Part shown: positions 47,956-62,769 of the stretch, one piece after another
Position numbering within the stretch: the first letter of the stretch is position 1
Layout: each line of letters opens with the position of its first letter
NCBI RefSeq assembly: GCF_021390495.1
Contig: NZ_JAJEJP010000001.1
Span: 2,356,001 to 2,420,000, forward strand
DNA: 64,000 nucleotides
Reading direction: 5' to 3'
Origin: Paraburkholderia sp. ZP32-5
Lineage (GTDB): Bacteria; Pseudomonadota; Gammaproteobacteria; Burkholderiales; Burkholderiaceae
Translations under genes and position numbers: made by a program
The notes under the pieces: generated by a model
Database searches by the model: none
What the model saw: only the letters and a program-made list of their open reading frames with translations
What the model was told of the DNA's origin: nothing

Positions 47956-48064
47956 ACCCGCGCTCCCTCTGCCCGCGTTTGCGCTTGCATTTTCGCTTGC
48001 GTTCGCATGTGCGCTTCAAACCGCGCGCCGCAGGCGGCGCTCATCTTCTTCACGATGCGTGCGT

Positions 48065-48820
48065 TCACCGGCTCACCCCCGTGACGGGATCGGCGGACAA
48101 CGCCTCGCGCACCGGCCACGATTGCCACAGCCATAGCACCTCGGAAATCGCCAGCAGCGAGACCGCCGCGAGCAGGAAAATCATCGTCCAGCGGCTGACG
48201 GTCGGCAGCTTGCGCGGCGCGACGTGCGACAGCGTGTTCGCGTACGCGGCATCGGCCAGCACGCGGTCGCGCCCGCCGAGGTCCGGGCGGCGCTGATAGA
48301 CGAACTCGTACAGTTCTTCGCGATAGCCGCGCAGCCGCGTTTCCGCGTCGGCGCCGCGAAAACGGCCCTGAAAGCCCATCGCCAGCGCGAACAGATACAA
48401 CCGCGCGACATTGCGGCGCGACGGTTCGCGATCCGACAGCAACTGCTCGATGCGCGTAAAGACGAGGTCACCGGCGACGTTGGTGCGAAACAGCGTCGAT
48501 TCGAGCAGATACGCGGTCCAGCGCTCGCGGCCGCACCACGGCGTGTTCAGCAGGATTTCATCGGCGAGCACGGTTTTCAGGTAGCGCGCGTCGGCGACGT
48601 TTTCCATTTCGAAGCGCGTGCTGTCGCGGCGCGATTCGAGCGTCTGCACTTCGATCAGGTTCAGCAGATGACGGCTCATGCCCTGCGCGGCGACGTCCGG
48701 GTCCGTGGCGGTCTCGTCGGCATAGCGCGACTGCGCCTTCACGAGCTCATCGAGAAAGATCCGGAACTGCTCGGTGATGAGGTCGTCTTCCTCGGATTCG
48801 GGGGGTCGATTGCGTGCCAT
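48065..48820 (-). CDS. tssL: Type VI secretion inner-membrane protein TssL (DotU/IcmH)
   Basis: A 251-residue inner-membrane subunit of TssJLM. It has the DotU hallmarks YLKTVLADEILLNTPWCGRE, LESTLFRTNVAGDLVFTRIE and LYLFALAMGFQGRFRGADAE. The single C-terminal membrane helix is TMIFLLAAVSLLAISEVLWL. No OmpA-like peptidoglycan domain is fused, so cell-wall anchoring must come from another subunit. Confidence 0.95.
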   Translation of the reverse strand: MARNRPPESEEDDLITEQFRIFLDELVKAQSRYADETATDPDVAAQGMSRHLLNLIEVQTLESRRDSTRFEMENVADARYLKTVLADEILLNTPWCGRERWTAYLLESTLFRTNVAGDLVFTRIEQLLSDREPSRRNVARLYLFALAMGFQGRFRGADAETRLRGYREELYEFVYQRRPDLGGRDRVLADAAYANTLSHVAPRKLPTVSRWTMIFLLAAVSLLAISEVLWLWQSWPVREALSADPVTGVSR

Positions 48821-48892
48821 GCTCAGCGTACCTTCGTCGTTGCTTTCATCTTCACTGCGTCACCGTGTGGGCCCGCCTGCGCGGGCGCTTTT

Positions 48893-48918
48893 CAGCCTTT
48901 CAACTCAGCCTTTCAACC
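48893..48918. repeat. 13-bp tandem duplication in the tssK-tssL gap
   Basis: CAGCCTTTCAACT is repeated as CAGCCTTTCAACC directly behind it. Just before it, GCCCGC/GCGGGC can form a 6-bp hairpin (48881-48896 area). The whole 112-base gap between tssK and tssL looks like recent slippage rather than a regulatory site. Confidence 0.6.
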
Positions 48919-48932
48919 CTGCAACTCGTTCT

Positions 48933-50288
48933 TTAGCCCTTCACGAACAGCAGCATTTCCTGCGGCCGTTGCGCACTCGCGCCTTCGTTCGGGTTGCCAA
49001 TGACCAGCGGTTCGCTTGCATGCACGAGCGCCGCTTCGGCGGCGATTTCGAACAGCAGATAGCCGGAGCCCGAACGAAGCCCGAGTTCTTCCGCGTAATC
49101 GACACCGCGGCGCGTCGCACCCAGCACGCGGCGCGCGCGCAGCGAGGCATAGACGGACTGCGAACCGATCACCGCGCCGTCCATCCACGCGAGCAGATCG
49201 CGTTCGGACTGACCGCGCAGACCGACGATCAGACGCTCGCCGATCCAGTCCGGCAGCAGCGTGATTTCGAACGCGCCGTGACGGAACTCGAACTTGTGCT
49301 CGCGATAGTCTTCGCTGACTTCGGACACCGCTTCGCGCAGCGAGCGCAACATCGGTGTGAACACCGCGAGCGGATCCGCATGGTCGTAATCGGGCGGCAC
49401 CGGCGGCAGGCCGCCCGGCTTGATCGTCGCGAGCGCGCCGCTCAGCGACGCGAGCGACCAGAACAGCGCGAGCGGATGCAGATGCGGCGTGCGCAGCGTC
49501 GCTTCAGCGAGCGGCAACGCGGACAGCAAGCTGCGCAGGCGGTCTTTCAATTCGAGCTGAGTGAGCCGGTCGTCGACTTTCGACGACGGATTGGCGGTCT
49601 GCCGCGCGACGAACGCGGCCTTGCCGCGCAGTTGCCCGAGCAGCGACGCGACCGCGCTCCATAGCGGATTGTCGCGAGCGATTTCGAGCAGCGGCGGCAG
49701 CGTATCGCCAAGGCGCACCACTTCGTTGTCGCGATACACCGAGCCGAGCCGCAGATGCACGTGCATCGCTGACGGCAATTCGCCCGCGGCCAGCGACAGA
49801 TTCGGCAGCAGGCGCGCAATCTCGGCGGCCGGCGCATCGGACACTTCGTCTTCGACCGGCGCGCCCGCCGCCGAGCGGAAGCGTTTGACCTGCGCGTCGC
49901 GGCGCATCGTCGCCGTGACCGGCAGCACCAGATAGAAATCGAGTGGCCCTTTAGCGAGCTGCTCGGCAAACGGCTCCAGCGACAGTTCGAGCCGCCCGTG
50001 CTCGGCCGCTTCGGCCGCATAAGACACCGCGGTGCCGTCCGGCATGATCGCGTCGAGCGCGAGAATGCGCACGAGCCCGGTCGGCAGCAGGCCATTGTCG
50101 AGTACGAGGCGCCGCACGCCCCAACTGAACGGCGCGGCGGCCAACGTCTGCCAGGCGACCAGCGAATCGACGCGCGCGGACATCAACTGGAAATGCTGCG
50201 GCGACAGCAGCATGCCCTCGAACCATTCGACGCGATCGGTGACCGCATTCGTCACGGCATTCAGTGCCGCATTGCCCGGATTAAACAT
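48933..50288 (-). CDS. tssK: Type VI secretion baseplate protein TssK
   Basis: The baseplate trimer that joins the tail to TssJLM, 451 aa from ATG 50288, with AAGGAG upstream. Family segments are VEWFEGMLLSPQHFQLMSAR near the start, FYLVLPVTATMRRD, the LPLAEATLRTPHLHPLALFW region and EHKFEFRHGAFEITLLPDWI toward the end. Length is normal. It follows tssJ by 72 bases. Confidence 0.95.
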   Translation of the reverse strand: MFNPGNAALNAVTNAVTDRVEWFEGMLLSPQHFQLMSARVDSLVAWQTLAAAPFSWGVRRLVLDNGLLPTGLVRILALDAIMPDGTAVSYAAEAAEHGRLELSLEPFAEQLAKGPLDFYLVLPVTATMRRDAQVKRFRSAAGAPVEDEVSDAPAAEIARLLPNLSLAAGELPSAMHVHLRLGSVYRDNEVVRLGDTLPPLLEIARDNPLWSAVASLLGQLRGKAAFVARQTANPSSKVDDRLTQLELKDRLRSLLSALPLAEATLRTPHLHPLALFWSLASLSGALATIKPGGLPPVPPDYDHADPLAVFTPMLRSLREAVSEVSEDYREHKFEFRHGAFEITLLPDWIGERLIVGLRGQSERDLLAWMDGAVIGSQSVYASLRARRVLGATRRGVDYAEELGLRSGSGYLLFEIAAEAALVHASEPLVIGNPNEGASAQRPQEMLLFVKG

Positions 50289-50360
50289 GCTCGCTCCTTG
50301 CCATGCCCGCAACACCTACATCGCAACCGGGGCCATTTATCACTCGACGCTTACACGCTG

Positions 50361-50876
50361 TCATTTGGTATCCGTGACGGTAAAACCGTTGCTGTCCAGC
50401 TGCACGACAAGGTGCCCGCTGAACTGCTGGATCCGCACGCGATGCGCGCCCGGATCCGGGTAATTGGCAAACACGAACGCGCCGGCAAAGCGCGGACCCG
50501 CGAAGGTATCAGCCGGCAGATCGAGCCGCTGGCCCGGCACCAGCTCCCAGCTACGAAAGCGGATGCTTTTCGGGAACGTCGCGAGCAGATCGGCGCGCCC
50601 CGCGAACCATTTCGCCGAGGTCATCTCGGCGACGCGCGCGAGCATCGCATCGTCGCCGACGAGCACGACGTCGACCGCCACCGGGCTGTCGTTGTTCGCT
50701 TCGTCGCTCGCCATCAGCGTCACCTGCGACCACTTCGCTTTCTCGCCGCTCAGGCCGAGCATGCCGCAGCTCGCGAGCAGGCACGCGCAGCTCATCGTCA
50801 TCGTTAGCATCACGATGAGGTTCGCGCCGCGGCGCAACCCACGGCGCGCGCTCCCGCCAGGCAACCAGTTCGTCAT
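50361..50876 (-). CDS. tssJ: Type VI secretion outer-membrane lipoprotein TssJ
   Basis: The outer-membrane lipoprotein of TssJLM, 171 aa. ATG 50876 overlaps the stop of the upstream DAACS gene (ATGA). A positively charged N-region is followed by a hydrophobic stretch and the lipobox LLASC with the acylated Cys at residue 37. The mature domain shows VDVVLVGDDAMLARVAEMTS, AKWFAGRADLLATFPKSIRF and PGAHRVRIQQF, as in TssJ. The N-region before the lipobox is unusually long (about 20 residues before the hydrophobic core), so a later start at MLTMTMSCACLL is possible. Confidence 0.9.
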   Translation of the reverse strand: MTNWLPGGSARRGLRRGANLIVMLTMTMSCACLLASCGMLGLSGEKAKWSQVTLMASDEANNDSPVAVDVVLVGDDAMLARVAEMTSAKWFAGRADLLATFPKSIRFRSWELVPGQRLDLPADTFAGPRFAGAFVFANYPDPGAHRVRIQQFSGHLVVQLDSNGFTVTDTK

Positions 50877-52297
50877 CTCGCTCCAACTCCAATGCCCATC
50901 AATACGATCAGTGACGCCGCCACGACCACGCAGCCCGCCGCGAGCACCAGTTGCGCGCGCGTGAACGTGAAGCTCAGCACCTGCGCACCGCCCTGCTCGC
51001 CATGAGGATCGGCGCTCGACTGCAGCCACTCCGACGGCAACCCCGCCGACACCAGCGCGATCACCGCGCACACGGTCAACAGGCTCAGCACGTTGCGCGG
51101 CCCTTCGCAGATCAGGTCGATCGACACGAACAGCACGCCCGCCGCTTCGACCGGCAAATGCAGAAACGACAGCACGACGCCCATGTAGCCAACCGTGGCG
51201 ACGCCATTCTGCCCGGCGGAGACGAATGCGGCCAGTGCGGACGCGGCTCCGATCAACGCAATGTCGCCCGCATCCAACGGACGGTCGTACAGATTTGCGA
51301 CGAACACGGTCGCGAGTGCGAAATACAGCGCGGAGCCGGCCCGCAAAAACACCGAACCGAACGGCACCACCAGTTCGGCGACACCGCGGCTGAAGCCGAG
51401 CGTCGCGCTCATCGATTCGATCGTGTGCGGGATCGGCGCGGTCGCGCTGCCCGAACTCAGTGCAACCACCAATGGCGCCTTCAGGCCCTGCAGCACGCGT
51501 CCGAACGGCGCGGTGCTGCGCGCGGCGATCGCGATCAGCGCGGCGCCGCCGACCAGCGCGGTGGCCGCGACGAAAGCCAGCAGAAAGCCGCCCATCGCGC
51601 TCAACGTCGCGCGTTCGGTATGCGCGGTCAGATGCGCGGACATGCCGAACGCGAGCACCGGAATCAGCAGGTTCGCGTGCGCGATCACGACTTCGAGCGC
51701 GCGGTACACGCCTTCGAACACGTTGTTGAGCATCTGCGAGCGCTCGCTCGACAGCGTCGCGAAAGCCAGACCGAACAGGATCGTGCCGGTCAGGATGCCG
51801 AGCGAGCGGCCTTGCGCGAGCACCCGGTAGAAGTTGTCCGGAAACAGATCCTGCACGCCGTACGGGCTGACACTCGCGGCCGCGTGCGACAGCGGACCGA
51901 ACAGCGTGATACGCATTTCCTCGGCATCGCTCGCGCTTTTCAGCACCAGTTCGCCGAGTTGCGCATGCGCGGCGGCGGACAGGTTCTGCCCCGGCATCAT
52001 CAGCACGCCGGCCAGCGTGCCGCCGAGCGCGCACAGCGCGACCAGCCCGACAGCGAGACCGGCGATCGTCGCGACACGCACGCCCGGGCGCGGCAACGCC
52101 AGCACCTGGCGCAAGCCGAAAAACGTCGCGACCACCAGCAGCGGCACCGCCGCCATGTTGACGACCGACAGATACAGCTGCCCGATGAAATACGCAAACG
52201 CACCGGCCGGCGCGGCGAACACGCCGGCCAGCCCGCCTACCGCCAGACACAGCAGCAAACCGAGAGGACTCTGCGAAAAAGTTTGCAGCGCTTTCAT
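50873..52297 (-). CDS. Divergent DAACS (glutamate/dicarboxylate) symporter 1, within the T6SS operon
   Basis: A 474-residue inner-membrane carrier of the DAACS/GltP fold. Helices 1-6 are recognisable (LRQVLALPRPG, GILTGTILFGLAFATLSSE). The HP1 serine region is SSGSATAPIPHTIESM. Where DAACS carriers have N(M/L)DG(T/S) in helix 7, this has VFLRAGSALYFALA. The helix 8 binding motif, usually D-R-x2-D-M-x-R-T, is IDLICEGPRN: the Arg is kept, but the substrate-amine Asp is Glu. So sodium and amine sites differ from characterised relatives. Its ATG overlaps the racemase stop and its stop overlaps the tssJ ATG, both ATGA. Confidence 0.88.
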   Translation of the reverse strand: MKALQTFSQSPLGLLLCLAVGGLAGVFAAPAGAFAYFIGQLYLSVVNMAAVPLLVVATFFGLRQVLALPRPGVRVATIAGLAVGLVALCALGGTLAGVLMMPGQNLSAAAHAQLGELVLKSASDAEEMRITLFGPLSHAAASVSPYGVQDLFPDNFYRVLAQGRSLGILTGTILFGLAFATLSSERSQMLNNVFEGVYRALEVVIAHANLLIPVLAFGMSAHLTAHTERATLSAMGGFLLAFVAATALVGGAALIAIAARSTAPFGRVLQGLKAPLVVALSSGSATAPIPHTIESMSATLGFSRGVAELVVPFGSVFLRAGSALYFALATVFVANLYDRPLDAGDIALIGAASALAAFVSAGQNGVATVGYMGVVLSFLHLPVEAAGVLFVSIDLICEGPRNVLSLLTVCAVIALVSAGLPSEWLQSSADPHGEQGGAQVLSFTFTRAQLVLAAGCVVVAASLIVLMGIGVGAR

Positions 52298-52995
52298 TGC
52301 GGCCTGTTCCAGCCCCGTTCGATCGCGAACGACACGGTCGCGCGCGCGAGTTCCAGCGAACTGTCGATCAGCTTCAGCGGCGGATCGCGCAATTGCTGCG
52401 CGGCGAGCGGAATCTCGGTGCAGCCCATCACCGCCGCGGTCACACCGCGCGCGGCGAGCGCGTCGAGCACCACGGCCAGATGCGCGCCGGCCGCGTCGAG
52501 CGCACCCGCCTTCACCTCGTGGATGCTCGCGGCGATGCGCTGCTGCATGTCCGCGTCCGGCACCAGCGGCTCGATATCGCGCTCGGTGAGCGCCGCCTGA
52601 TAGAAGCCCGACACCATCGTGCCGCCGGTGCCGAGCACCGCGACGCGGCGCGCGCCGGCGGGTATCGCGGCCACGCAGGCTTCGGCAATATGCAGCACCG
52701 GCGCGCGGCTATGCGCGCGCATCTGCGCATACCAGTGATGCGCGGAATTGCATGGCACCGTGATGAGCCCGACGTCGTTGCGGTTCAGCAAATCGATACC
52801 GGCGAGCAGACCGTCGAGGCAATCCTCGCCTTCGCCGAGAATCGCGCGCGAGCGGTCGGCGATATGCGGCAGATTGGCGACCAGCATCGGCAGATGCTGC
52901 TGGTCGCAACTGGCGTCGGTCAGCTGCACGACCTTGCCCATGAAGTCGACCGTCGCAAGCGGCCCCATGCCGCCGAGGACTCCGATAAGTGCCAT
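52294..52995 (-). CDS. Aspartate/glutamate racemase family protein
   Basis: A 233-residue racemase of the Asp/Glu family. It begins MALIGVLGGMGPLATVDFMG. The two catalytic cysteines are in place: ITVPCNSAHHWYAQM at about residue 81 and AVMGCTEIPLAAQQ at about 191. These fit aspartate racemase (YgeA/RacX branch), making D-Asp or D-Glu, though broad specificity is common. The flanking genes encode DAACS-fold carriers of acidic amino acids, 10 bases upstream and 4 overlapping bases downstream, which supports an acidic substrate. Confidence 0.92.
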   Translation of the reverse strand: MALIGVLGGMGPLATVDFMGKVVQLTDASCDQQHLPMLVANLPHIADRSRAILGEGEDCLDGLLAGIDLLNRNDVGLITVPCNSAHHWYAQMRAHSRAPVLHIAEACVAAIPAGARRVAVLGTGGTMVSGFYQAALTERDIEPLVPDADMQQRIAASIHEVKAGALDAAGAHLAVVLDALAARGVTAAVMGCTEIPLAAQQLRDPPLKLIDSSLELARATVSFAIERGWNRPQ

Positions 52996-53005
52996 AGCAG
53001 GGCTC

Positions 53006-54280
53006 CTAGATCTTCAACGGACGCGGGCAGATCAGCGTGACTGCCGCGGCATTGCCGATCACGAGGATCAGCGTGCGCAGCATGTCGCACAGCGGGTCGA
53101 CCGCGAGAAACAGAATGAATGCCGCTTCGAACGGCAGGCGCAGATACGCGCAGGTCATGCCGACAAGCGACACCGTGACGAGCCCGGTCATGCCGGCCGA
53201 AGCGAAACCCGCGAGCACCGACGCGAGCAGCACCGTGACGATTTCGACGACGCCGAGCGAGCGTCCGTACAGTTGCGCGATAAAGAGCGTCGCGCTGACG
53301 TAATAGACCATCGGGCCGACGCGCAGCAGCGAGATCGTCAGCGGCACCAGCAGTTCGACGCGCGAGCGCGCGAAGCCGAGCCCGTCGACGAGGCTTTCGA
53401 TCATGCTCGGCATGCAGGCCGCGCTGTTACGCGTGGCGAGCGCCAACGCGAACGGCGCGCGCAGCGCGTCGAGCGTCTTGCCGAGACTGTGGTTCGAACG
53501 CTTCCAGATGATCGCGGCGGCCAGCGCCAGCAACAGCACGGAGACCACGAAGAACGCGATCACGAATTGCAGCATCGCGTGCAGCGGCCCGACGCCCGAC
53601 TTGCCGAGCTGCGCGGCGCTCATGCAGATCAGGATCAGCGGCAGCGGATAGCTGAGCCAGTGCATCAGCTTCTGGCACGCGTGATAGATGGTTTCCAGCG
53701 ACTGGCTCAGGCCCGCCGAAATACGCTCCGGCACGCGGCCGACCGCGAGGCCGAACAGCAGCGCGAACACCAGCGCCTTCAGCGCATCGCCGTTCGCCAG
53801 CGCGGCGAAGATGTTGGTCGGCACGAGGCTCGTCAGCACGTCGGACAGGCTCAGCGACTGCTGCGGCAGATCGGCGCCGTACAGGTTCATCACCGTGTCG
53901 CTCGACGACGAGTCGCTGCCGACCATCAGGCCGAAGGTCTGCATCGTCGCGGTCGACAGGTTCTTGCCGGGATGCAGCGCCATCACGACGATCGCGCCGA
54001 CCACCGCAACGGTCGCCGACGCGCCGAGAAACACCGTGATCACGCGCATCAGCAGACGCGACGTGCCGCCGTCGCGAAACAGCCGCTGCAAGCTGAAAAT
54101 GACCGCCGAGATCATGAACGGCAGCGTCGTCATCTTCAGCAGATCGACGTAGATGTCGCCGATAAAGCCGAGCTTCTGCGCCTCGGCGGGCAACAACAAA
54201 CCGATCGTGCCGCCGATCGCGAGACTGCCGATCACCACCCACGGGTTCAGAACGAATGCATAGATCCTGCTGGAATTCAT
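53006..54280 (-). CDS. Divergent DAACS symporter 2, within the T6SS operon
   Basis: A 424-residue DAACS-fold carrier. Start ATG 54280 has AAGAGAG upstream. The helix 8 motif is AVDPLCDMLRTLILVIG, which keeps the Asp and Arg-Thr that bind the amino and side-chain carboxyl groups. The helix 7 N(M/L)DG(T/S) motif is replaced by LLRVGPMVYYVSAT, and the HP1 serine string by ATRNSAACMPSMIE. It is clearly related to but not identical with the carrier at 50873; the two probably arose by an old duplication. Transport, or conversion to a sensor, cannot be decided from sequence. Confidence 0.88.
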   Translation of the reverse strand: MNSSRIYAFVLNPWVVIGSLAIGGTIGLLLPAEAQKLGFIGDIYVDLLKMTTLPFMISAVIFSLQRLFRDGGTSRLLMRVITVFLGASATVAVVGAIVVMALHPGKNLSTATMQTFGLMVGSDSSSSDTVMNLYGADLPQQSLSLSDVLTSLVPTNIFAALANGDALKALVFALLFGLAVGRVPERISAGLSQSLETIYHACQKLMHWLSYPLPLILICMSAAQLGKSGVGPLHAMLQFVIAFFVVSVLLLALAAAIIWKRSNHSLGKTLDALRAPFALALATRNSAACMPSMIESLVDGLGFARSRVELLVPLTISLLRVGPMVYYVSATLFIAQLYGRSLGVVEIVTVLLASVLAGFASAGMTGLVTVSLVGMTCAYLRLPFEAAFILFLAVDPLCDMLRTLILVIGNAAAVTLICPRPLKI

Positions 54281-54360
54281 GATGTGCTCTCTTGCGTGTG
54301 TGCCGTGTACCGATGCGCGTATGCGTGTACGCGCGTTCTTTGTGGCTGATTCATGGCCTG

Positions 54361-55353
54361 TTAATGATTGGTCGCCTGCAGAACCGTATTCACGTCGTAC
54401 TTCGTATTGCGCTCCGCGAGGAACTGGTTGACGAACGCGAGCAGCGTCGGCGTCGACACGTTCACGCCGATTGCGAGCGTGTCTTCCAGATCCTGCAGCG
54501 TGACGACACGCAGCCGAAGCGATGCGGTCGGGTCGACTTTCAGCACGCGCTTCACTTCGAATTCGTCGCGATACGCGGCCGTCACTTCACCCGAGTTCAG
54601 CGCGGCGAGCACCGCTTCCCAGGTCGGGTAGCTGTGCACCTGCGCCTTCGGGAAATTGCTCTCGACATAGGTCGCATACGACGAATTGGCAACCACGCCG
54701 ATCGAGCCGTCATAAGTGCGGATCACTTCCGGCACCGGCCGGCCATGCGCGAGTTGCGCGAACTTCACGCGGTTGAGCAGCAGCGCGCGCTTCAGGCTCA
54801 GATACGGCGTGCTGAAGCTGATCACCTGCGCGCGCGCGAGCGTGCGCGACAGCTTGCTGACCGCGATATCGGCCTGGCCTTTGGCGAGCAGGCTCACCAC
54901 GTCGTCGAAGCTCTTCGCGTCGCGGTTAAAGCGCACCTTCACACCGAGCTTCTTCGCGATGTCTTCTGCGAGCGTGATGTCGAGGCCCGTCAGCTTGCCG
55001 TCGTGCTCTTCGAAGAACGGCGGCTGGTCGACGCCGAGCACCGCGACGATCAGCTCGCCACGCGCGACGATGCGCGCAAACTCGGGTGCGAGCAGACGTC
55101 CGTCCGGCATCTGCACCAGACCGGTCGACGTCATGGTCAGCGACGGCGCCGGTGCCGAAGCGGCACTGTCGACAGCGGCGGCCGTGGCCGGCGCGTGATG
55201 CGCGGGCGCATTACCGGCCGCGCCGGCGGGCAGCGCGATCAACGAACCCAGCGCGAGCGCCGCCGCGAGCATCGCGGTGCCACGTGTGCGGCTAAAAGCG
55301 CGGCCAAAAACGCGGCTAAGGGTCCGGGCAACATTCAGAAACAGAGACGACAT
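54361..55353 (-). CDS. Periplasmic amino-acid-binding protein (SBP_bac_3), no ABC partners
   Basis: A 330-residue periplasmic binding protein. The N-terminus has an Arg-rich region then a hydrophobic signal core ending PAGAAG, followed by an Ala/Pro linker of about 35 residues. The SBP3 domain shows IVARGELIVAVLGVDQPPFF, GKLTGLDITLAEDIAKKLGV, ADIAVSKLSRTLARAQVISF (with the carboxylate-binding Arg) and STPYLSLKRALLLN. These are the marks of polar amino-acid binding proteins. No permease or ATPase gene is adjacent; instead DAACS carriers follow. It may act as a receptor rather than for ABC import. Confidence 0.88.
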   Translation of the reverse strand: MSSLFLNVARTLSRVFGRAFSRTRGTAMLAAALALGSLIALPAGAAGNAPAHHAPATAAAVDSAASAPAPSLTMTSTGLVQMPDGRLLAPEFARIVARGELIVAVLGVDQPPFFEEHDGKLTGLDITLAEDIAKKLGVKVRFNRDAKSFDDVVSLLAKGQADIAVSKLSRTLARAQVISFSTPYLSLKRALLLNRVKFAQLAHGRPVPEVIRTYDGSIGVVANSSYATYVESNFPKAQVHSYPTWEAVLAALNSGEVTAAYRDEFEVKRVLKVDPTASLRLRVVTLQDLEDTLAIGVNVSTPTLLAFVNQFLAERNTKYDVNTVLQATNH

Positions 55354-55367
55354 GACAAGTACCAGTC

Positions 55368-55607
55368 CTAGAGAGTCGAAGAAGCAGGAGCCGCCGCGGA
55401 CGCGCTGCCGGCGTCCGGCGAATTCTGCGGTGCCACACTGCCGGTCGAGACCGACGCGGGCGCGGCCGAAGCCGGGGGCGTGTCCGGCGCGGCAAAGCGC
55501 GAACCGATCTCGACCCCGAGCAGGAACAACAGCACGCATAGCAGCAGCGCGCAGGTCGCGGCGATCGTCACCATCCGCGAAGTCATCGAAAAAACGTATT
55601 GCTGCAT
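55368..55607 (-). CDS. Small single-pass membrane protein of the T6SS amino-acid module
   Basis: A 79-residue protein I cannot assign to a family. One strong membrane helix (residues about 12-32, VTIAATCALLLCVLLFLLGV) is followed by a Pro/Ala/Ser-rich tail (residues 40-79). The short N-terminus MQQYVFSMTSR and charge pattern suggest the tail is periplasmic. GAGG lies upstream of the ATG. It lies 12 bases after the PAAR-like gene and 14 before the periplasmic binding protein gene, so it is co-transcribed with both and could anchor one of them. Confidence 0.75.
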   Translation of the reverse strand: MQQYVFSMTSRMVTIAATCALLLCVLLFLLGVEIGSRFAAPDTPPASAAPASVSTGSVAPQNSPDAGSASAAAPASSTL

Positions 55608-55619
55608 GGGTCCTGGTCC

Positions 55620-56006
55620 TCACGGAATCATGGTGGTGAACTGCGCGGGCGCGGTGATCTGGATCACGCCGCCCCACGAGCACATCAGCTTCGACGAATC
55701 GTTCAGCGCCGGCTGTCCGCCGATCAGCACGGTCGGCGAACCCGGCACCCACGGCGCGGCGGTCACGGGCAGACACGGCATCGGCGTCAGCGCGCCGAGC
55801 GCGGCAGCCGTTGCGGCGGCGACCATCGGATTGCCCATGCAGCTGCAGGTGCCGAACGGCATCACGTTGACCATCGGAATGTGGTCCATGATCGTCGCGG
55901 CCGGCGCGCCCGAGAGCACCGCGTTCAGCGGCAAAACGTTGAGCGTGCCGGGCGCGGCGCCGAAGCTGCATTGCACGGTGGTGCCGGAAGTGATCTGCAT
56001 GCCCAC
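55620..56006 (-). CDS. PAAR-like (DUF4280) spike-tip protein
   Basis: A 128-residue DUF4280 protein, the PAAR-like family predicted to cap VgrG. The start is set at GTG 56006 (VGMQITSGTTVQCSFGAAPG), with GAGGGG six bases upstream; ATG 56000 is close and an ATG at 56024 would overlap the upstream gene. Family marks are the first-strand Cys (VQCSFG), ATIMDHIPMVNVMPFGTCSC, MPCLPVTAAPWVPGSP and SKLMCSWGGVIQI, with four or more cysteines that could hold a metal. No toxin domain is fused. Confidence 0.88.
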   Translation of the reverse strand: MGMQITSGTTVQCSFGAAPGTLNVLPLNAVLSGAPAATIMDHIPMVNVMPFGTCSCMGNPMVAAATAAALGALTPMPCLPVTAAPWVPGSPTVLIGGQPALNDSSKLMCSWGGVIQITAPAQFTTMIP

Positions 56007-56008
56007 GG

Positions 56009-56755
56009 CTAGCCCCTCACCCATTTCTCAAACTTGTTGACGATGCGCGGACCGCCTGGCGTGCCGGGCGCCGATGCCGCCGCGACGCTGCGCCATTCGC
56101 CTTGCGGCTTGCCCTTCACGTACACGCGCTCTTCCATCACGCTGCCGTCCGGCGCGAAACGGCGCACAGTGCCGTCGAGCAGATTCGCGCGATAAGGCGA
56201 CGACTGCACCAGCGTGCCGTCACGCGCATAGTCGCGTGCCTCGCCTTCGAGCATCCCGTGGCGATAGTTCATGCGCCGCACGACCACGCCGTCGTTCATA
56301 TAGAGCGCTTCGCGTTCGAGCTTGCCAGCCTCGTAATGGAGCTTCGACGTGACGAGCCCCGACGGCGCGTAGGACACGCTCTCGCCGTGCAATACGCCCT
56401 GCACGTAGTGCTGACGTGCGGCCGGATTGCCGTCCAGATACAACGTGCTCGCGCCGTGCAGCTTGCCGTTCAGGTAGTGCGCGTGCGTGAGCGGCGTGCC
56501 CTGCGCGTCGAACGTGCGCAACGGACCGCTCAGCGCGCCGTGCGCGAAGTGCGCCTGCTGCAGCACGGTGCCGTCGGGCGCATAGCGCGTGGTCTCGCCG
56601 TGCGGCACGCCATTCACGAGCGACGCGCGGCCGACCAGATGGCCGGCCTTGTCATGCTCTTCGACGATGTGCGCAATGCCATCCGCTTCCGCTGCTTTCG
56701 CGGAAGCGGGTGAATCGGCCGGCGGTGACAGTAACGTTTCGATCGCTGGCCTCAG
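56009..56755 (-). CDS. MORN/YwqK-like repeat protein between vgrG and the PAAR-like gene
   Basis: An open frame of 248 codons made of about nine repeats of 20-23 residues of the form G-x-(L/P)-x-G-x5-Y-x2-(D/S)G (for example GVLHGESVSYAPSGL, GMLEGEARDYARDG, NLLDGTVRRFAPDG). This is the MORN-like/YwqK antitoxin-family fold. The stop is two bases before the PAAR-like GTG. There is no ATG, GTG or TTG in frame before the GTG at 56617. A CTG at 56755 overlaps the vgrG TGA (CTGA), imitating the ATGA overlaps elsewhere in the operon, and I take that as the likely start; 56617 is the alternative and would drop two repeats. The role may be immunity, or adaptor/chaperone for the PAAR-like tip. Confidence 0.72.
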   Translation of the reverse strand: MRPAIETLLSPPADSPASAKAAEADGIAHIVEEHDKAGHLVGRASLVNGVPHGETTRYAPDGTVLQQAHFAHGALSGPLRTFDAQGTPLTHAHYLNGKLHGASTLYLDGNPAARQHYVQGVLHGESVSYAPSGLVTSKLHYEAGKLEREALYMNDGVVVRRMNYRHGMLEGEARDYARDGTLVQSSPYRANLLDGTVRRFAPDGSVMEERVYVKGKPQGEWRSVAAASAPGTPGGPRIVNKFEKWVRG

Positions 56756-58647
56756 TTCAGTTTGACGATGCCGCCTTTCAGCGCGAGCATGCCGCCACCG
56801 TCGACGGTCTGCGTGGTCGACGCCTTGTGCGACACCGTCAGCCCTTCGCTGCTCAGCGTGGTGCCGGCCTTGCTCGAATGCGTGGTGCCCGCTTCGCTCG
56901 CGAGCGACGTACCGGCCTTGATGCTGACCGAACCGCTGACGTCGATCGTCAGATTGCCGCTGACCTTCAGCGTGTAATTGCCGCTGACGGTCTGCGAAAA
57001 CGCCGCGCTGTTCGTATGCGTTTCGTCGCCGGTGATGGACAGCGTGCGGGTGCCCTTGACGTTGTGCGTCTCCTTGCCGGTCTGCACGTCGACCGTGCGG
57101 TCGCCCTTCTGGATCACATGCGATTCGGCGCCGGCGATCACCGTCGTGGTCAGCGCGTTTTCGATCGACACGTTCATGTCTTTCTGCGCGTGGAAGTACA
57201 ACTCTTCGGAATTGATCTTGTCTTCCATGCGGATTTCGTTGCCGGCGGTGCCGCTTTTCGACGAGCGCGACAGCATCACGCTTTGCGTCTGCAGCGACGG
57301 CAGCGCAACCGGTGGCGTGTTGGTGCCGTTGTACACGCAGCCCGTCACGAGCGGCCGGTCCGGGTCGCCGTCGACATAGCTGACCACCACTTCCTGGCCG
57401 ATGCGCGGCAGCACCAGATGCCCCCATCCCTGGCCCGCCGATGCCTGCGAGACGCGCACCCAGCACGAGCTGTTTTCGTCGGCGCCCGCGCTGCCGTCCC
57501 AGTAGAACTTCAGCTTCACTCGACCGTTTGCATCGGTCCAGATTTCCTCGCCCGACGAACCGACCACCTTTGCGGTGTGCGTGCCGGCCACCAGCGGACG
57601 CGGTGTGACGAGCGGCGCGCGAAACGGCACCGATTCCGGAAACACGTCGAACTCGTTGCTGTAGGTGTCGTTCGACGCGGTATGCACGACCGCGCGCACC
57701 ACGTACGCGACATTCAGTGCGCTATTCACATGGCCGCTCAGCGTGAACGACGTGCCGGCCGTCAACGAATAGCAGTAGCCGTTGCCGTGGCCAGTCTGCT
57801 GCTGCACGGTTTGCGCGGCGAGCCGCACCGCGGCCTTGCGCGTGCCTTCGGCGGCGGTCGCGTACTTGCCGGGAAACACATAGCTGCGCCCGGTCGGCAC
57901 CGACGCGCTGCCGCTCGACGTCGCGCTCGAACCGGCCGCCGTCAGATAGTCGTAGTCGGCCAGCACGTGCTCGCCGGACACGATGTCCTGCGTCATCGTG
58001 AATTCGGCGAGCCGCTCGGCGCGCGGCGCGATGCTGCTGTCGGGCGCGAAATACAGTGTCGCGGCGGCGCCCGTCTGATGCGCGGACGCGCTGTCGGCGA
58101 GCACCATCGTATGGGTGCCGTTCGCGAACGTGAAGAAGTAGAAGATGCCCTCTTCCTCCATCAGCCGCGAGATGAAATCGAAGGCGCTTTCGTCGTACTG
58201 CACGCAGTATTCGCGCGCGGTATAGGTGCCGCTGATGCTGAGCTGGAACGTGACCTGGAAGTTGCCGAGCACGGCCTGGATGATGTCGAGCGCGCTCTGG
58301 TTCTGGTAGATCATCCGGTCGCGGCCGAGCGTCAGCAGCCACAGGCGCGGCGCGACTTCGGCCGAATAGAATGCGTACTGCGAGTTCGCGCCCGCATGCG
58401 CGAAGCGCTTGACGATGCCGCTGAAGTAACGCGCGGTGCCGACCTGATCCTTGACCGTGACCGTCACGACCTTGCCGATGATCGTCTGCGCATCGAGCGC
58501 CTTGTTGGTCGAGCGCATCCGCAGATCGAAGTGAAACGGCGCGGAAATCGCCTCGCGGCCCGCGAAACCATCGAGCAGCAGCACGTCCGTGCCGAACGGC
58601 GTCGTCACGGAGATGAACCAGTTGTCCTGGCTAGGCACGCTCGACAT
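56752..58647 (-). CDS. vgrG: Type VI secretion spike protein VgrG
   Basis: The trimeric spike protein, 631 aa. The gp27-like head starts at about residue 10 and includes FHFDLRMRSTNKALDAQTII, EYCVQYDESAFDFISRLMEE and EEGIFYFF. The gp5-like OB fold has GRVKLKFYWDG, CWVRVSQASAGQGWGHLVLP and RIGQEVVVSYVDGDPDRPLV. The C-terminus is a beta-helix of repeats rich in Ser and Thr ending GGGMLALKGGIVKLN, the DUF2345-type end. No effector domain is fused. It is preceded by clpV at 4 bases and followed by the repeat-protein gene. Confidence 0.95.
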   Translation of the reverse strand: MSSVPSQDNWFISVTTPFGTDVLLLDGFAGREAISAPFHFDLRMRSTNKALDAQTIIGKVVTVTVKDQVGTARYFSGIVKRFAHAGANSQYAFYSAEVAPRLWLLTLGRDRMIYQNQSALDIIQAVLGNFQVTFQLSISGTYTAREYCVQYDESAFDFISRLMEEEGIFYFFTFANGTHTMVLADSASAHQTGAAATLYFAPDSSIAPRAERLAEFTMTQDIVSGEHVLADYDYLTAAGSSATSSGSASVPTGRSYVFPGKYATAAEGTRKAAVRLAAQTVQQQTGHGNGYCYSLTAGTSFTLSGHVNSALNVAYVVRAVVHTASNDTYSNEFDVFPESVPFRAPLVTPRPLVAGTHTAKVVGSSGEEIWTDANGRVKLKFYWDGSAGADENSSCWVRVSQASAGQGWGHLVLPRIGQEVVVSYVDGDPDRPLVTGCVYNGTNTPPVALPSLQTQSVMLSRSSKSGTAGNEIRMEDKINSEELYFHAQKDMNVSIENALTTTVIAGAESHVIQKGDRTVDVQTGKETHNVKGTRTLSITGDETHTNSAAFSQTVSGNYTLKVSGNLTIDVSGSVSIKAGTSLASEAGTTHSSKAGTTLSSEGLTVSHKASTTQTVDGGGMLALKGGIVKLN

Positions 58648-58651
58648 GCTG

Positions 58652-61417
58652 CTAGGCCTCCTCGACGGACAGGAAGCGGAAATCGATGCCGCCGTTCTCG
58701 CTCACGACCAGATGCACGCCGCCGAACGGTTCCGAAATCGAGATGCGTTCGAGTACCTGACGCGCGAGTTCGGGCAGGATCGATTGCGTCAGGATGTGAT
58801 CGACATTGCGCGCGCCACTATCCACTTCCTTGCAGCGCTCGGTGATCAGCGCGGCCAGCGGTTCGTCCCACGTCAGGCGCGCATGGTGATTGCTCTCGAA
58901 ACGCTGCGCGAGCCGCGTCAGCTTCAGATTGACGATCGAGTGAATCTGCGCGTCGCCGAGCGGGTAATACGGCACCAGCACCAGACGGCCGAGGAACGCC
59001 GGGCTGAACTGGCGCAACAGCGCCGGGCGCAGACGTTCGGTCAGCGCTTCCGGTTCCGGGCGGCGGCCGCCCGCGCATGCATCGGTGATGATGTCTTGCG
59101 CCGCGTTCGAGGTCAGCAGGATCAGCGTGTTCTTGAAGTCGATCGGCACGCCTTCGCCGTCTTCCATCACGCCCTTGTCGAACACCTGGAAAAACAGTTC
59201 GAGCACATCCGGATGGGCCTTTTCCATCTCGTCGAGCAGCACGACGCTATAGGGACGGCGCCGCACCGCTTCGGTCAGCACGCCGCCGCGTCCATAGCCG
59301 ACATATCCGGGCGGCGCACCCTTCAGCCCCGACACGCTGTGCGCTTCCTGGAACTCCGACATATTGACGGTGATCATGTTGCGCTCGCCGCCGTACAGCG
59401 TATCGGCCAGCGCGCACGCGGTCTCGGTCTTGCCGACGCCGCTCGGGCCGACCAGCAGGAACACGCCGACCGGCTTGCCCGGATCGTCGAGATCGGCGCG
59501 GAACGTGCGCACACGGCGCGCGATCGCATCGAGTGCCTGATCCTGGCCGACCACGCGTTCGGCGAGTTTGTCCTGCAGATACAGCACCGTGTGCAACTCG
59601 TCGGCAAGCATGCGGCCGACTGGAATGCCGGTCCAGCCGGAAATCACTTTCGCGACCACCGACGAATCGACGCACACCGGCACCATCGGCTCGTCGCTCT
59701 GCACCGCTTCGAGGCCTTTTTCGAGGCGGCCGAGGTTGGCCGTCAGCGACGCGGCATCGTCGGCGTCGTCGCCGTCCGCGGTGTTGCGTTCGTCGGCCAG
59801 ATGCTCGGCGATCTTCTTGCGCCACGCGATGATCTCGCCGACCGCATGCTTTTCGGTGACGAGCTTGTCCGACAGACGCGCATGCTGCGCGCGGTCGGTT
59901 TCGAGCTGCTTCGTGATCGTTGCAATGGCATCGGCGCGGTCGCTGCCGGTGGCCGCTTCGTGGCGCAGGATGCGCAACTGGTTCTCGTTGCTTTCGATCG
60001 AGCGGCCGAGCGCTTCGATCTCTTCCGGCACGCCGTTCTGACCGATCGCGACGCGCGCGCAAGCGGTGTCGAGCACGCTGATCGCCTTGTCCGGCAACTG
60101 GCGCCCGGTGATATAGCGATGCGACAGCCGCACCGCGTCGCGCACCGCGTCGTCGAGAATTTCGACGCCATGATGTTCGGCGAGCTTCGCGACCATGCCG
60201 CGCAGCATGTCGATCGCAACCGCTTCGCTCGGCTCTTCGACCTTGACGACCTGGAAGCGCCGCGCGAGCGCCGGGTCGCGTTCGACGTATTTCTTGTACT
60301 CGGCCCACGTGGTCGCGGCGATCGTGCGCAACTCGCCGCGCGCGAGCGCCGGCTTCAACAGATTGGCCGCGTCGCCCTGACCTTCGCTGCCGCCCGCGCC
60401 GATCAGCTGATGCGCTTCGTCGATGAACAGGATCACCGGCACCGGTGACGCCTTCACCTCGGCGATCACCGACTTCAGGCGGTTCTCGAATTCGCCCTTC
60501 ACGCCCGCGCCGGCTTGCAGCAACGCGAGATCGAGCGAGCGCACCGACACGTTCTGCAACGCCGGCGGCACGTCGCGCTGCACGATACGTTGCGCGAAAC
60601 CTTCGACCACCGCCGTCTTGCCGACGCCGGCCTCGCCGGTCAGGATCGGGTTGTTCTGGCGGCGCCGCAGCAGCACGTCGATCAGTTGACGGATCTCGGC
60701 ATCGCGGCCGCGAATCGGATCGATCGCGCCTTCGCGGGCGAGCGCGGTCATATCGACCGTGTATTGATCAAGCGCGCTGTGCGCGCCACCGCCGGCCGCG
60801 CGCGACATCGACGGCATTTGCGGTTGCTGCGGCGCGGCGGCGTCCGTCGTGCTCTTGCCCGCCGCATCGGGCGAGCCGCCGGCGGCGCTACCAGCCGACT
60901 TGCCAGCCGCTTTGCCGGCGGACGACGCTCCGCCGCCCGCATCTTCCGCCGAGCCCGCCAGCACCGTCGCCAGTTGATCGCGCAGGCTCGCGCGCGGAAT
61001 GTTCAGCAATGCCGGCGCCGATTCGAGCAGCAGACCGCGCAGGCTGTCGATTTCGAGCAGCGCGAGCACCAGCGTGCCCGAACGGATCTGCTGCTCGCCG
61101 AGCAGCATCGAGCTGAGCAGCCACGCTTCCTGAAACAGCGCCGCGAAATTCGGCGACAGCGCGGGCGTGCGGCCATTGCCGCGCTTGAACTGGTCGATCG
61201 CTTTCTGCAACTGCGCGATCAGTGTGTCCGGCTTGATCTGGAAATGCTTGAGGATCGCCTGCAGATCGGGCGCATCGGACTCCAGCAGCGTCAGCAACAG
61301 ATGTTCGACGTCGACGTTGTAGTGGGTCTGCCGCACGCACAATTGCGCGGCCTGCTCCATCGCGTGTTTGCACTCGGGATTGAGCTGGGCCAGCAGCGTA
61401 CGGATATCGATGTTCAT
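58652..61417 (-). CDS. tssH: Type VI secretion AAA+ ATPase ClpV (TssH)
   Basis: It disassembles contracted TssBC sheath. It is 921 aa. The N-domain has TLLAQLNPECKHAMEQAAQL and the binding groove YNVDVEHLLLTLLE. The first AAA+ module has GEAGVGKTAVVEGFA near residue 259 and a sensor region with VILFIDEAHQLIG. The second has GPSGVGKTETACALAD near residue 655 and VVLLDEMEKAHPDVLELFFQ. Between the N-domain and first module is a long Ala/Gly/Ser linker (residues about 167-215). Its ATG overlaps the tssG TGA (ATGA). Confidence 0.96.
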   Translation of the reverse strand: MNIDIRTLLAQLNPECKHAMEQAAQLCVRQTHYNVDVEHLLLTLLESDAPDLQAILKHFQIKPDTLIAQLQKAIDQFKRGNGRTPALSPNFAALFQEAWLLSSMLLGEQQIRSGTLVLALLEIDSLRGLLLESAPALLNIPRASLRDQLATVLAGSAEDAGGGASSAGKAAGKSAGSAAGGSPDAAGKSTTDAAAPQQPQMPSMSRAAGGGAHSALDQYTVDMTALAREGAIDPIRGRDAEIRQLIDVLLRRRQNNPILTGEAGVGKTAVVEGFAQRIVQRDVPPALQNVSVRSLDLALLQAGAGVKGEFENRLKSVIAEVKASPVPVILFIDEAHQLIGAGGSEGQGDAANLLKPALARGELRTIAATTWAEYKKYVERDPALARRFQVVKVEEPSEAVAIDMLRGMVAKLAEHHGVEILDDAVRDAVRLSHRYITGRQLPDKAISVLDTACARVAIGQNGVPEEIEALGRSIESNENQLRILRHEAATGSDRADAIATITKQLETDRAQHARLSDKLVTEKHAVGEIIAWRKKIAEHLADERNTADGDDADDAASLTANLGRLEKGLEAVQSDEPMVPVCVDSSVVAKVISGWTGIPVGRMLADELHTVLYLQDKLAERVVGQDQALDAIARRVRTFRADLDDPGKPVGVFLLVGPSGVGKTETACALADTLYGGERNMITVNMSEFQEAHSVSGLKGAPPGYVGYGRGGVLTEAVRRRPYSVVLLDEMEKAHPDVLELFFQVFDKGVMEDGEGVPIDFKNTLILLTSNAAQDIITDACAGGRRPEPEALTERLRPALLRQFSPAFLGRLVLVPYYPLGDAQIHSIVNLKLTRLAQRFESNHHARLTWDEPLAALITERCKEVDSGARNVDHILTQSILPELARQVLERISISEPFGGVHLVVSENGGIDFRFLSVEEA

Positions 61418-62769
61418 GCGCGCAATCCTTCTTGATGACGTCCGGCAGCGGTGGCCGCGCGCAGCGCGAGCCGAACCGGTGCCGGTGCCGGTGCTGGTTC
61501 AAGTGCCGTCGACCGCGCGGCGGCAGCCGTGCCGCGCGCGTGGGTCGTGGAAATGGTTTGAGGGGTATTGCTCGTATCGCCGGCATCGTTCGAACGGCGC
61601 GCGCCGCCGGCCACCCACGAGGTCCAGCCGAGCCGCGCCGCGCGCGGGCCGCCGAGCGCGCAACTGACGCGCTGCGGCGCCAGCTTCAGCACGAATTCGA
61701 CGTCGAAATCCTGTTGCAGATAGCAGCGGATCAGCCATTGCGCGAGCGCATGATCGCGCCCGCCCGGCAGCAGCGCGGTGAAACGTTCGCGCGACAGATC
61801 CGCGAATTCGATGCGAATGCCGGCCGCCTGATCCCATGCGCGACGGCCCAGCACGCTCTGGCCGCCGAGCCGCGGCGCGCGCGAACCGACGCGCGCGAGC
61901 CGCAGCGAATCGCTGGCATCGATATCGCGCCAACCGCCGACGAACTGCGCGCCGCGCACCGGAACGCCGAGGCGGTCGGACAGCAGCGCGAGCAGGCCCG
62001 TCATCGAACGCGGCGCGGCGCTCAGCAGCCCCGCGTGACGCAGCCACAGCCGTTCGTCGTGCGGGCCGCGCTGGTCGCCGTTCAGGCCGAGATTGCTCAA
62101 CGTGTCGAGGCACGCGGCGATCGCCGACGAATGCGGCGAGCGCCAGTTCAGACCCGGCGCGTGCTTCTTGCGGCTGCGATACAGGAACGACAGGAAGCGA
62201 TGATTGAAGATGTCGAGCAGGTCGGCCATCGCGAAGTCACGCTTCGTCATGGCTTCGAGCACCAGCTCGGTAAACGGCATCGGCAGCGGACCGTTCGCGC
62301 CGGCGAGCGTCAGCGCGGCGGTCGACAACGTGAACGCGGGACGCCGGCCCGGGCGCGGACGATGCCGCTCGCGCAGTTCGTGCGGCTCGTGTTCTTCATT
62401 GGCCGGCGGCACGGTGCGACTGTCGTGCGGGTCTTTGTGCGAATCTTCGCGCGCTTCGATGCCCACCTCGATGCGCGCCTGAGCGAGTACCTGATCGAGC
62501 AGCAGATCGAGCGCCGGGTTGCGCGGTTCGTCGCGCAATCCGCCACGCCGCACGCTGCGCACGTCGCTCGGTTCGAACGCGAGCGACACGGAACCCGTCA
62601 GACGCACCGCTTCGCCCGCGCCATTGCCGCGGCCGAGCGCGCGCGCATGCGGCACGGCACGTTCGAGCAGACTGATCGCCTGGAACAGATCGAAGCCTTG
62701 CGGATTCGCGATGAGCCGGGCGATCAGAGCAGCTGCTGGCAACCGGTCATCGGTTCCCATTGCTTCCAT
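61414..62769 (-). CDS. tssG: Type VI secretion baseplate protein TssG
   Basis: A baseplate wedge subunit, 451 aa. ATG 62769 has GGAG seven bases upstream and overlaps tssF by 46 bases; ATG 62760 is an alternative. TssG marks are QGFDLFQAISLLERAVPHAR, RLTGSVSLAFEPSDVRSV, LSTAALTLAGANGPLPMPFT and FLSFLYRSRKKH. Residues about 88-140 are a charged, His- and Arg-rich insertion (EDSHKDPHDSRTVPPANEEH onward) not usual in TssG. The C-terminus carries about 45 low-complexity residues. Confidence 0.93.
   Translation of the reverse strand: MEAMGTDDRLPAAALIARLIANPQGFDLFQAISLLERAVPHARALGRGNGAGEAVRLTGSVSLAFEPSDVRSVRRGGLRDEPRNPALDLLLDQVLAQARIEVGIEAREDSHKDPHDSRTVPPANEEHEPHELRERHRPRPGRRPAFTLSTAALTLAGANGPLPMPFTELVLEAMTKRDFAMADLLDIFNHRFLSFLYRSRKKHAPGLNWRSPHSSAIAACLDTLSNLGLNGDQRGPHDERLWLRHAGLLSAAPRSMTGLLALLSDRLGVPVRGAQFVGGWRDIDASDSLRLARVGSRAPRLGGQSVLGRRAWDQAAGIRIEFADLSRERFTALLPGGRDHALAQWLIRCYLQQDFDVEFVLKLAPQRVSCALGGPRAARLGWTSWVAGGARRSNDAGDTSNTPQTISTTHARGTAAAARSTALEPAPAPAPVRLALRAATAAGRHQEGLRA

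Follow-up and report, generated by a model that had tools for sequence, protein, structure and literature searches.

Paraburkholderia phymatum carries a type VI secretion system (T6SS), T6SS-b (Bphy_5986-5992; family i4a), for which Hug et al. (2021; PMC8356804) list, in this order, a YwqK protein, a PAAR-like protein, a hypothetical protein, an "amino acid ABC transporter," an SDF protein, an Asp/Glu racemase, and a second SDF protein. The same order is found in Paraburkholderia sp. ZP32-5, within the 64,000-nt stretch analyzed here (the window; contig NZ_JAJEJP010000001.1, positions 2,356,001-2,420,000 of the forward strand). There, genes for a PAAR-like protein, a small protein, a periplasmic substrate-binding protein (SBP), an SDF carrier (carA), a racemase, and a second SDF carrier (carB) are followed by tssJ to tssM. 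In P. phymatum STM815, plasmid record NC_010625.1 encodes a carrier that shares 89.9% identity with carA and is probably Bphy_5990. Both carriers have lost ion-site residues of their family, the SBP keeps ligand-type residues, and the three genes are maintained together in related T6SS clusters, with SBP and carrier inherited largely in parallel. Our favored reading, to which we assign a probability of roughly 0.4, is that the SBP and both SDF proteins act as a receptor, or as an ion-uncoupled exchanger, for an acidic amino acid and serve the T6SS.

The membrane parts of TRAP and TTT transporters are not known to be SDF proteins. In the present locus an SDF protein takes that place, two of them in the T6SS; the likeness to TRAP and TTT lies in the pairing of a binding protein with a membrane protein of the secondary-carrier type (PMC5812351). 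A binding protein is paired with an SDF carrier in the DctB/DctA/DctS system of Bacillus subtilis, where the two serve as co-sensors of C4-dicarboxylates, the binding protein as an accessory (PMC6978683); this is a precedent for a sensor made of these two parts. A potential likeness also exists to the exchangers AncInt and ExtInt, which have the SDF fold and transport without Na+ or H+ coupling (PMC12668577).

The T6SS-b cluster has also been named in Cupriavidus, Achromobacter, Variovorax, and Rhodoferax, and in one Janthinobacterium without the racemase (PMC8356804). Hug et al. treat the carriers as sodium:dicarboxylate symporters whose substrate is probably unlike that of DctA; the available part of their article contains no mutants of, or experiments on, the module genes that we could find. 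What is described here beyond that account is the lost ion site, the existence of SBP-carrier pairs outside T6SS clusters, and the assignment of the small protein to the T6SS. The initial annotation of the window had known of no characterization of this exact gene set, which is in fact not new. For the wider family of binding protein plus carrier we found no description: Hug et al. aside, none of the titles and abstracts listed in searches of open-access literature dealt with an SBP-SDF pair or a T6SS transceptor.

Carrier, binding protein, and racemase sequences

The PF00375 model matches both carriers over nearly its full length (positions 4-383 of 387 in carA, 5-375 in carB), and the two are 31% identical to each other. 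In GltPh, the Na3 site is formed by T92, S93, N310, and D312 (PMC5110648), and the NMD motif is a nexus of Na+ and substrate binding; H+-coupled SDF proteins are marked by a hydrophobic residue at 92, M311L, D405N, and the putative protonation site S279E (PMC12668577). We surveyed 77 distinct carA and 83 distinct carB sequences (160 carriers) in GltPh numbering. N310 and D312 are both missing from every one (77/77 and 83/83). The position of M311, Arg in the window carA, is Arg in 76 carA sequences and Gln in one; in carB it is Arg in 76, Lys in six, and His in one. It is therefore Arg, Lys, or His in 159/160 carriers and never Leu. Glu at position 279 is absent throughout (0/160). Position 92 is mostly hydrophobic, with T/S in 8/160, while S/T at 93 is found in 69/77 carA and 0/83 carB, and Asn at 405 in 63/77 carA. 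R397 is kept in 76/77 carA and 80/83 carB.

Neither carrier thus has the Na3 ligands of a Na+-coupled protein, and the H+-coupled signature is present in part, with position 92 and, in carA, position 405 mostly in agreement and 311 and 279 not. AncInt and ExtInt differ from the carriers here in that they keep their ion sites (PMC12668577). All seven other SDF paralogs of the ZP32-5 genome keep N310 and D312, with E or D at 279. An identity as ordinary DctA/GltP proteins was rejected on the lost ion-site residues and on family profiles. Because the Na+ site and the full H+ signature are absent from both carriers, ordinary ion-driven uptake is doubtful. Judged by these residues, neither published ion signature is complete, yet the protein is under strong constraint. 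Arg at 311 may take the place of the lost cations, or of N401, and hold a carboxylate, and the carriers may work by exchange or as sensors, not as pumps. No relative of the carriers was found in one scan of viral_contigs.

The SBP has a hydrophobic, signal-like N terminus with no cysteine in that stretch. Its neighbors (PAAR, the small membrane protein, SDF, racemase, and TssJ-like protein) include no ABC permease or ATPase, as the initial annotation had noted, and the locus does not have the composition of an ABC importer. R174 is kept in 77/77 SBP rows and D263 in 75/77. Both align with an Arg and an Asp of solved SBP3 proteins, which we take to be ligand residues, and the ligand is likely an amino acid. 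The SBP of B. subtilis DctB is presumably of a different type.

The retained ligand-type residues would also suit a scavenging role, in which the SBP passes acidic amino acids, including D-Glu or D-Asp released from prey lysed by the T6SS, to the carriers, the racemase converts D-forms to usable L-forms, and the T6SS in effect supplies food. The full-length SDF domain and the R397 kept in the T6SS carriers agree with such a role, as does the presence of the racemase beside SBP-SDF pairs outside T6SS clusters (loci L165, L201, and L202, below). Against it, the absent Na+ site and H+ signature leave no evident driving force for concentrative uptake, the genome has seven other SDF carriers, and the racemase was not found in 17/61 carrier-bearing complete loci. 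We regard scavenging as possible though rather doubtful.

The racemase scores 217.6 bits against NCBIfam NF052483 (cysteate racemase CuyB; cut-off 190) and 145.8 bits against TIGR00035 (cut-off 93.1); aspartate racemases of known structure also align with this CuyB-scoring protein. The two catalytic cysteines that the initial annotation had recognized, C82 and C192, are identical in all 62 rows of an alignment from which partial and duplicate rows were left out, as are R48 and K162, and the two cysteines place the protein in the Asp/Glu racemase superfamily. In the T6SS clusters surveyed below, the racemase occurs in 44/61 carrier-bearing complete loci and was not found in 17/61. Both carriers are present without a racemase in 17 loci (one of which is not in the complete set); their carriers lie 3 to 160 bases apart, and the racemase queries had no match there. 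Racemase presence needs at least five changes on the TssK tree. The racemase was consequently rejected as a core part of the module, being dispensable while the SBP and carriers stay. A racemase tree groups the T6SS sequences with L201/L202 at weak support (75/76), and long branches occur elsewhere in it. At another site in the ZP32-5 genome, two adjacent genes (L206 and L207) encode racemases that share this Pfam family; the T6SS racemase profile scores 225 bits there.

The racemase product might instead be exported by the carriers, editing cell walls and aiding attack or self-protection. The racemase in question in Acinetobacter baumannii is named RacK. Secreted D-lysine is reported to aid a T6SS effector in that species (PMC10433429). 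Ion-uncoupled carriers could swap L- for D-amino acids. The racemase is dispensable, however, while the SBP and carriers are kept, and a binding protein would be of little use in export. We consider D-amino-acid output very unlikely.

Distribution in T6SS clusters and beyond

Among 144 genomes of the genus, 25 encode carA at 80% identity or more, and the next among the matches listed reach at most 33%. T6SS-cluster genes stand beside carA in 25/25 of these loci, two of which are on short contigs only (L065 with tssJ, L066 with PAAR and YwqK). An order-wide scan found carA at E <= 1e-60 in 5/399 genomes, including that of ZP32-5; in the other four, carA again lies in T6SS clusters. A scan anchored on TssK gave 80 loci, 79 of which were placed in a tree (L141 was left out, its TssK frame having been extracted short). 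Sixty-eight of the 79 were judged complete; the other 11 were excluded for too little upstream DNA. The TssK, carrier, and SBP trees are quick trees with SH-aLRT (approximate likelihood-ratio) support and no bootstrap.

Both carriers are present in 60/68 complete loci, with the SBP in 59 of these 60; the remaining locus is cut before the SBP. The SBP, carA, racemase, and carB are all present in 44/68, and the racemase alone is missing in 12/68. In 3/68 the SBP, carA, and carB lie behind tssM on the opposite strand, and a further such locus is cut before the SBP; this relocated module corresponds to a single clade of four loci, in which carA and carB are still together. One of the 68 has the SBP and carB only, and seven have no module gene. 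The synteny therefore extends well beyond one strain, the SBP and carriers being conserved in related T6SS clusters across Burkholderiales. Absence of the module was judged on the sequence examined, in which L137, L138, and L142 show no PAAR. The locus with SBP and carB only (Ramlibacter albus, L122:7187-9375) has these two genes between PAAR and tssJ and no carA. In a cluster with the relocated module, the interval from tssA to tssJ encodes, on the opposite strand, a protein matching Ntox11 (L124:6644-7906).

The small membrane gene was found between PAAR and tssJ in five related clusters that have neither SBP nor carriers, by tblastn in L140, L141, and L144 and by reading of frames in L148 and L150. 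The PAAR-tssJ distance in these clusters is 238 to 310 bases, with the small gene inside. Since it is kept where the module is absent, it is a T6SS gene and not an amino-acid-module gene, and its place between PAAR and tssJ marks the insertion point of the module. The five-gene module of the initial annotation was rejected on this ground: its SBP and carriers stand, the small membrane protein is counted with the T6SS, and the racemase is optional. The same annotation had read the overlap of the carB stop with tssJ as tying a secretion subunit to the carrier. The 4-base overlap is there in the window and in 31/79 measured loci; translational coupling of carB and tssJ would thus be common, not universal.

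These genes might be mere passengers, an operon for transport that entered the cluster and is retained through operon structure with no role in secretion. The module is absent from 7/68 complete loci and from L141, outside the tree, as this would predict. The genes nevertheless remain in the cluster even when relocated and inverted, and every carA match of at least 80% identity in the genus scan had T6SS-cluster genes next to it. Furthermore, mean identity over 23 loci is higher for carA (86.5%) than for any other of the 12 cluster proteins compared, among them TssH (83.1%), TssK (78.8%), and TssJ (57.8%); some PAAR frames in this comparison were wrongly picked, with identities down to 19%. 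We think a passenger status improbable.

Carriers of this kind also occur outside T6SS clusters. A class-wide scan found a carA-like protein at E <= 1e-30 in 5/369 genomes, that of ZP32-5 included. In a phylum-wide scan of 398 genomes, nine had a best match of at least 234 bits and the next genome 204 bits; three of these were T6SS genomes known from the other scans, and the remaining six are new. In all, ten genomes have NxDG-less carriers outside T6SS clusters. Queries for tssG to tssM, vgrG, ywqk, and PAAR had no match in the sequence examined at these ten loci, several of which are on short contigs. In 9/10, the carrier has a neighboring SBP from the subfamily of the T6SS SBPs; in the tenth, L200, the carrier begins at the contig end. 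The racemase is found in 3/10, in the order racemase-SBP-SDF in L165 and, as in the T6SS, SBP-SDF-racemase in L201 and L202, which are from one genus. D312 is lost in 11/11 rows of these carriers that have a residue at the position, and Arg is found at 311 in 8/11. These loci were found through carrier similarity, with a cut-off by which weaker members may be missed; carB of genome G199, for one, falls below it. A unit that exists without adjoining T6SS genes is again what passenger genes would lead one to expect.

Control SDF loci behave differently. Of 28, each with about 1.5 kb of flank, 25 keep NxDG and three read NMSG, and a weak SBP match is found in 2/28 (35-39 bits versus 227-397 for the linked SBPs). 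The SBP profile was built with the SBPs of L165-L168 and without those of L199 and L201-L204, which score 227-277 bits versus at most 78 for other SBP_bac_3 proteins of the ZP32-5 genome. In the carrier tree, SBP-linked carriers separate from controls with support 100, and carA and carB each form a group with support 99. In the SBP tree, the SBPs of T6SS clusters and of the nine non-T6SS loci separate from other SBP_bac_3 proteins of the ZP32-5 genome with support 99. L201/L202 join the T6SS sequences in both trees (support 100 for carriers, 93 for SBPs), and L166 and L167 pair in both. The L204 carrier, in two pieces, was scored apart and excluded from the carrier tree. There is one conflict: the L203 carrier groups with the second carrier of L199, and its better-matching SBP with the first SBP of L199. 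The SBP and carrier trees largely agree and so indicate parallel inheritance.

A second SBP-SDF type is present at L199:3506-5634 and L203:8762-10853, where the carriers pair across the two loci and so do the SBPs, each with support 100, although these SBPs lie outside the main SBP subfamily. At L167:3067-5530, in a genome of 0.9 Mb that is 63% complete, the SBP-SDF pair lies amid F1 ATP synthase genes, with an alpha-type gene on one side and gamma- and beta-type genes on the other.

A proposed receptor or exchanger serving the T6SS

On the favored reading, the SBP, carA, and carB would form a single unit of periplasm and inner membrane, possibly a physical complex. The unit would bind an acidic amino acid, be it Asp, Glu, cysteate, or a D-form, either to exchange it without ion coupling or to act as a receptor. 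Its ancestry would be shared with the stand-alone SBP-SDF(-racemase) operons: such an operon, with the racemase in some lineages, would have come to the junction of the small membrane gene with tssJ in this type of T6SS, the location at which two carriers were kept. There the unit would tune the T6SS to its ligand, and the racemase would be an optional add-on that converts the ligand or widens the range. The coupling of secretion to sensing, import, or racemization that the initial annotation had suggested may exist, and the unit may affect secretion.

Several observations weigh against this reading. Module presence needs at least five changes on the TssK tree, so the association with the T6SS is not a single clean gain; this weakens the receptor or exchanger and strengthens the case for passenger genes. 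The T6SS-b promoter reporter that Hug et al. tested on carbon sources was highest on citrate and low on glutamate, and not highest on Asp or Glu (PMC8356804). AncInt and ExtInt work without Na+ yet keep ion-site residues (PMC12668577), and since Na+-independent exchangers can have intact ion sites, residue loss cannot separate exchange from a receptor function. DctB/DctA/DctS has a sensor kinase (PMC6978683), whereas no histidine kinase or other signaling protein was found among the genes scanned here; one may lie elsewhere in the genome. Carriers outside T6SS clusters keep N310 in 4/11 rows and R397 in only 3/10 (rows with a residue at the position), so neither complete loss of the ion site nor an acidic substrate can be generalized to the wider family. 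Finally, the second, divergent SBPs of L199 and L203 fall among other SBP_bac_3 proteins.

In order of decreasing likelihood, we place the receptor or exchanger first, then scavenging, then passenger genes, and finally D-amino-acid output. Should SBP and carrier be one unit, the SDF family, which includes the neuronal glutamate transporters, would gain a binding-protein-dependent, ion-uncoupled branch, and there would be a direct link between a small molecule and T6SS firing. Even if the module is for transport only, the lost ion site is a natural experiment on ion coupling. A bolder proposal, which we advance tentatively, is that SBP-linked SDF proteins are a further binding-protein-dependent class beside TRAP and TTT, spread across Pseudomonadota and with the ion site replaced mostly by Arg, and that the two-carrier T6SS version is a transceptor licensing secretion.

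Locus layout and the TssJ-like lipoprotein

Pfam and NCBIfam matches bear out the gene coordinates and families initially assigned to the module (Table 1). All genes from the small membrane protein to the TssJ-like protein are co-oriented in the order small membrane protein, SBP, carA, racemase, carB, and tssJ-like. The intergenic distances recounted from PAAR to tssJ-like, 12, 14, 80, 10, -4, and -4 bases, are as first given, the two 4-base overlaps being at racemase/carB and carB/tssJ. The surroundings make up most of a T6SS. One flank encodes TssF, TssG, TssH, VgrG, a MORN/YwqK protein, and the DUF4280 PAAR-like protein; the other encodes the TssJ-like protein, TssK, TssL, TssM, and TssA, with TssC just past the window edge.

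Table 1. Features of the module and its immediate neighbors in the window
Feature	Position	Strand	Evidence
TssK, anchor of the synteny survey	48933..50315	-	TIGR03353, 257.4 bits
Divergent TssJ-like lipoprotein (putative)	50361..50876	-	4-base overlap with carB; C37; hhalign
carB, second SDF carrier without NxDG	50873..52297	-	PF00375, 145.5 bits
Racemase, Asp/Glu/cysteate type, optional part	52294..52995	-	PF01177, 141.7 bits
carA, SDF (DAACS-fold) carrier without NxDG	53006..54280	-	PF00375, 201.4 bits
SBP, SBP_bac_3 (SBP3-type) periplasmic amino-acid-binding protein	54361..55353	-	PF00497, 74.3 bits
Small single-pass membrane protein, T6SS gene beside PAAR	55368..55607	-	present in module-less clusters
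PAAR-like protein (DUF4280)	55620..56024	-	PF14107, 117.8 bits

Simple scans of 48000-64000 gave no promoter-like site (shuffled sequences, 1.6 ± 1.3) and 14 terminator-like sites, not above the 11.2 ± 3.5 of shuffles. With both at background level, nothing was seen that isolates the module genes, such as a promoter and terminator of their own. Three sigma54-like sites on the coding strand in the 14 kb scanned, versus 1.5 in shuffles, led nowhere, as did Rfam and tRNA scans of the window.

The TssJ-like protein has no Pfam (including PF12790), NCBIfam, or credible PDB sequence match, and a PDB search with the TssJ profile returned one weak, unrelated match. Its lipobox cysteine, C37, is kept in 91/91 aligned rows. 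An hhalign comparison of its profile with the genome's own three TssJ proteins that match PF12790 gave a probability of 94.3%, and we regard it as a candidate divergent TssJ, tied to that family by profile comparison alone. The whole genome has four TssC genes; the three PF12790 TssJ genes share contigs with the other three of these, within about 21 kb.

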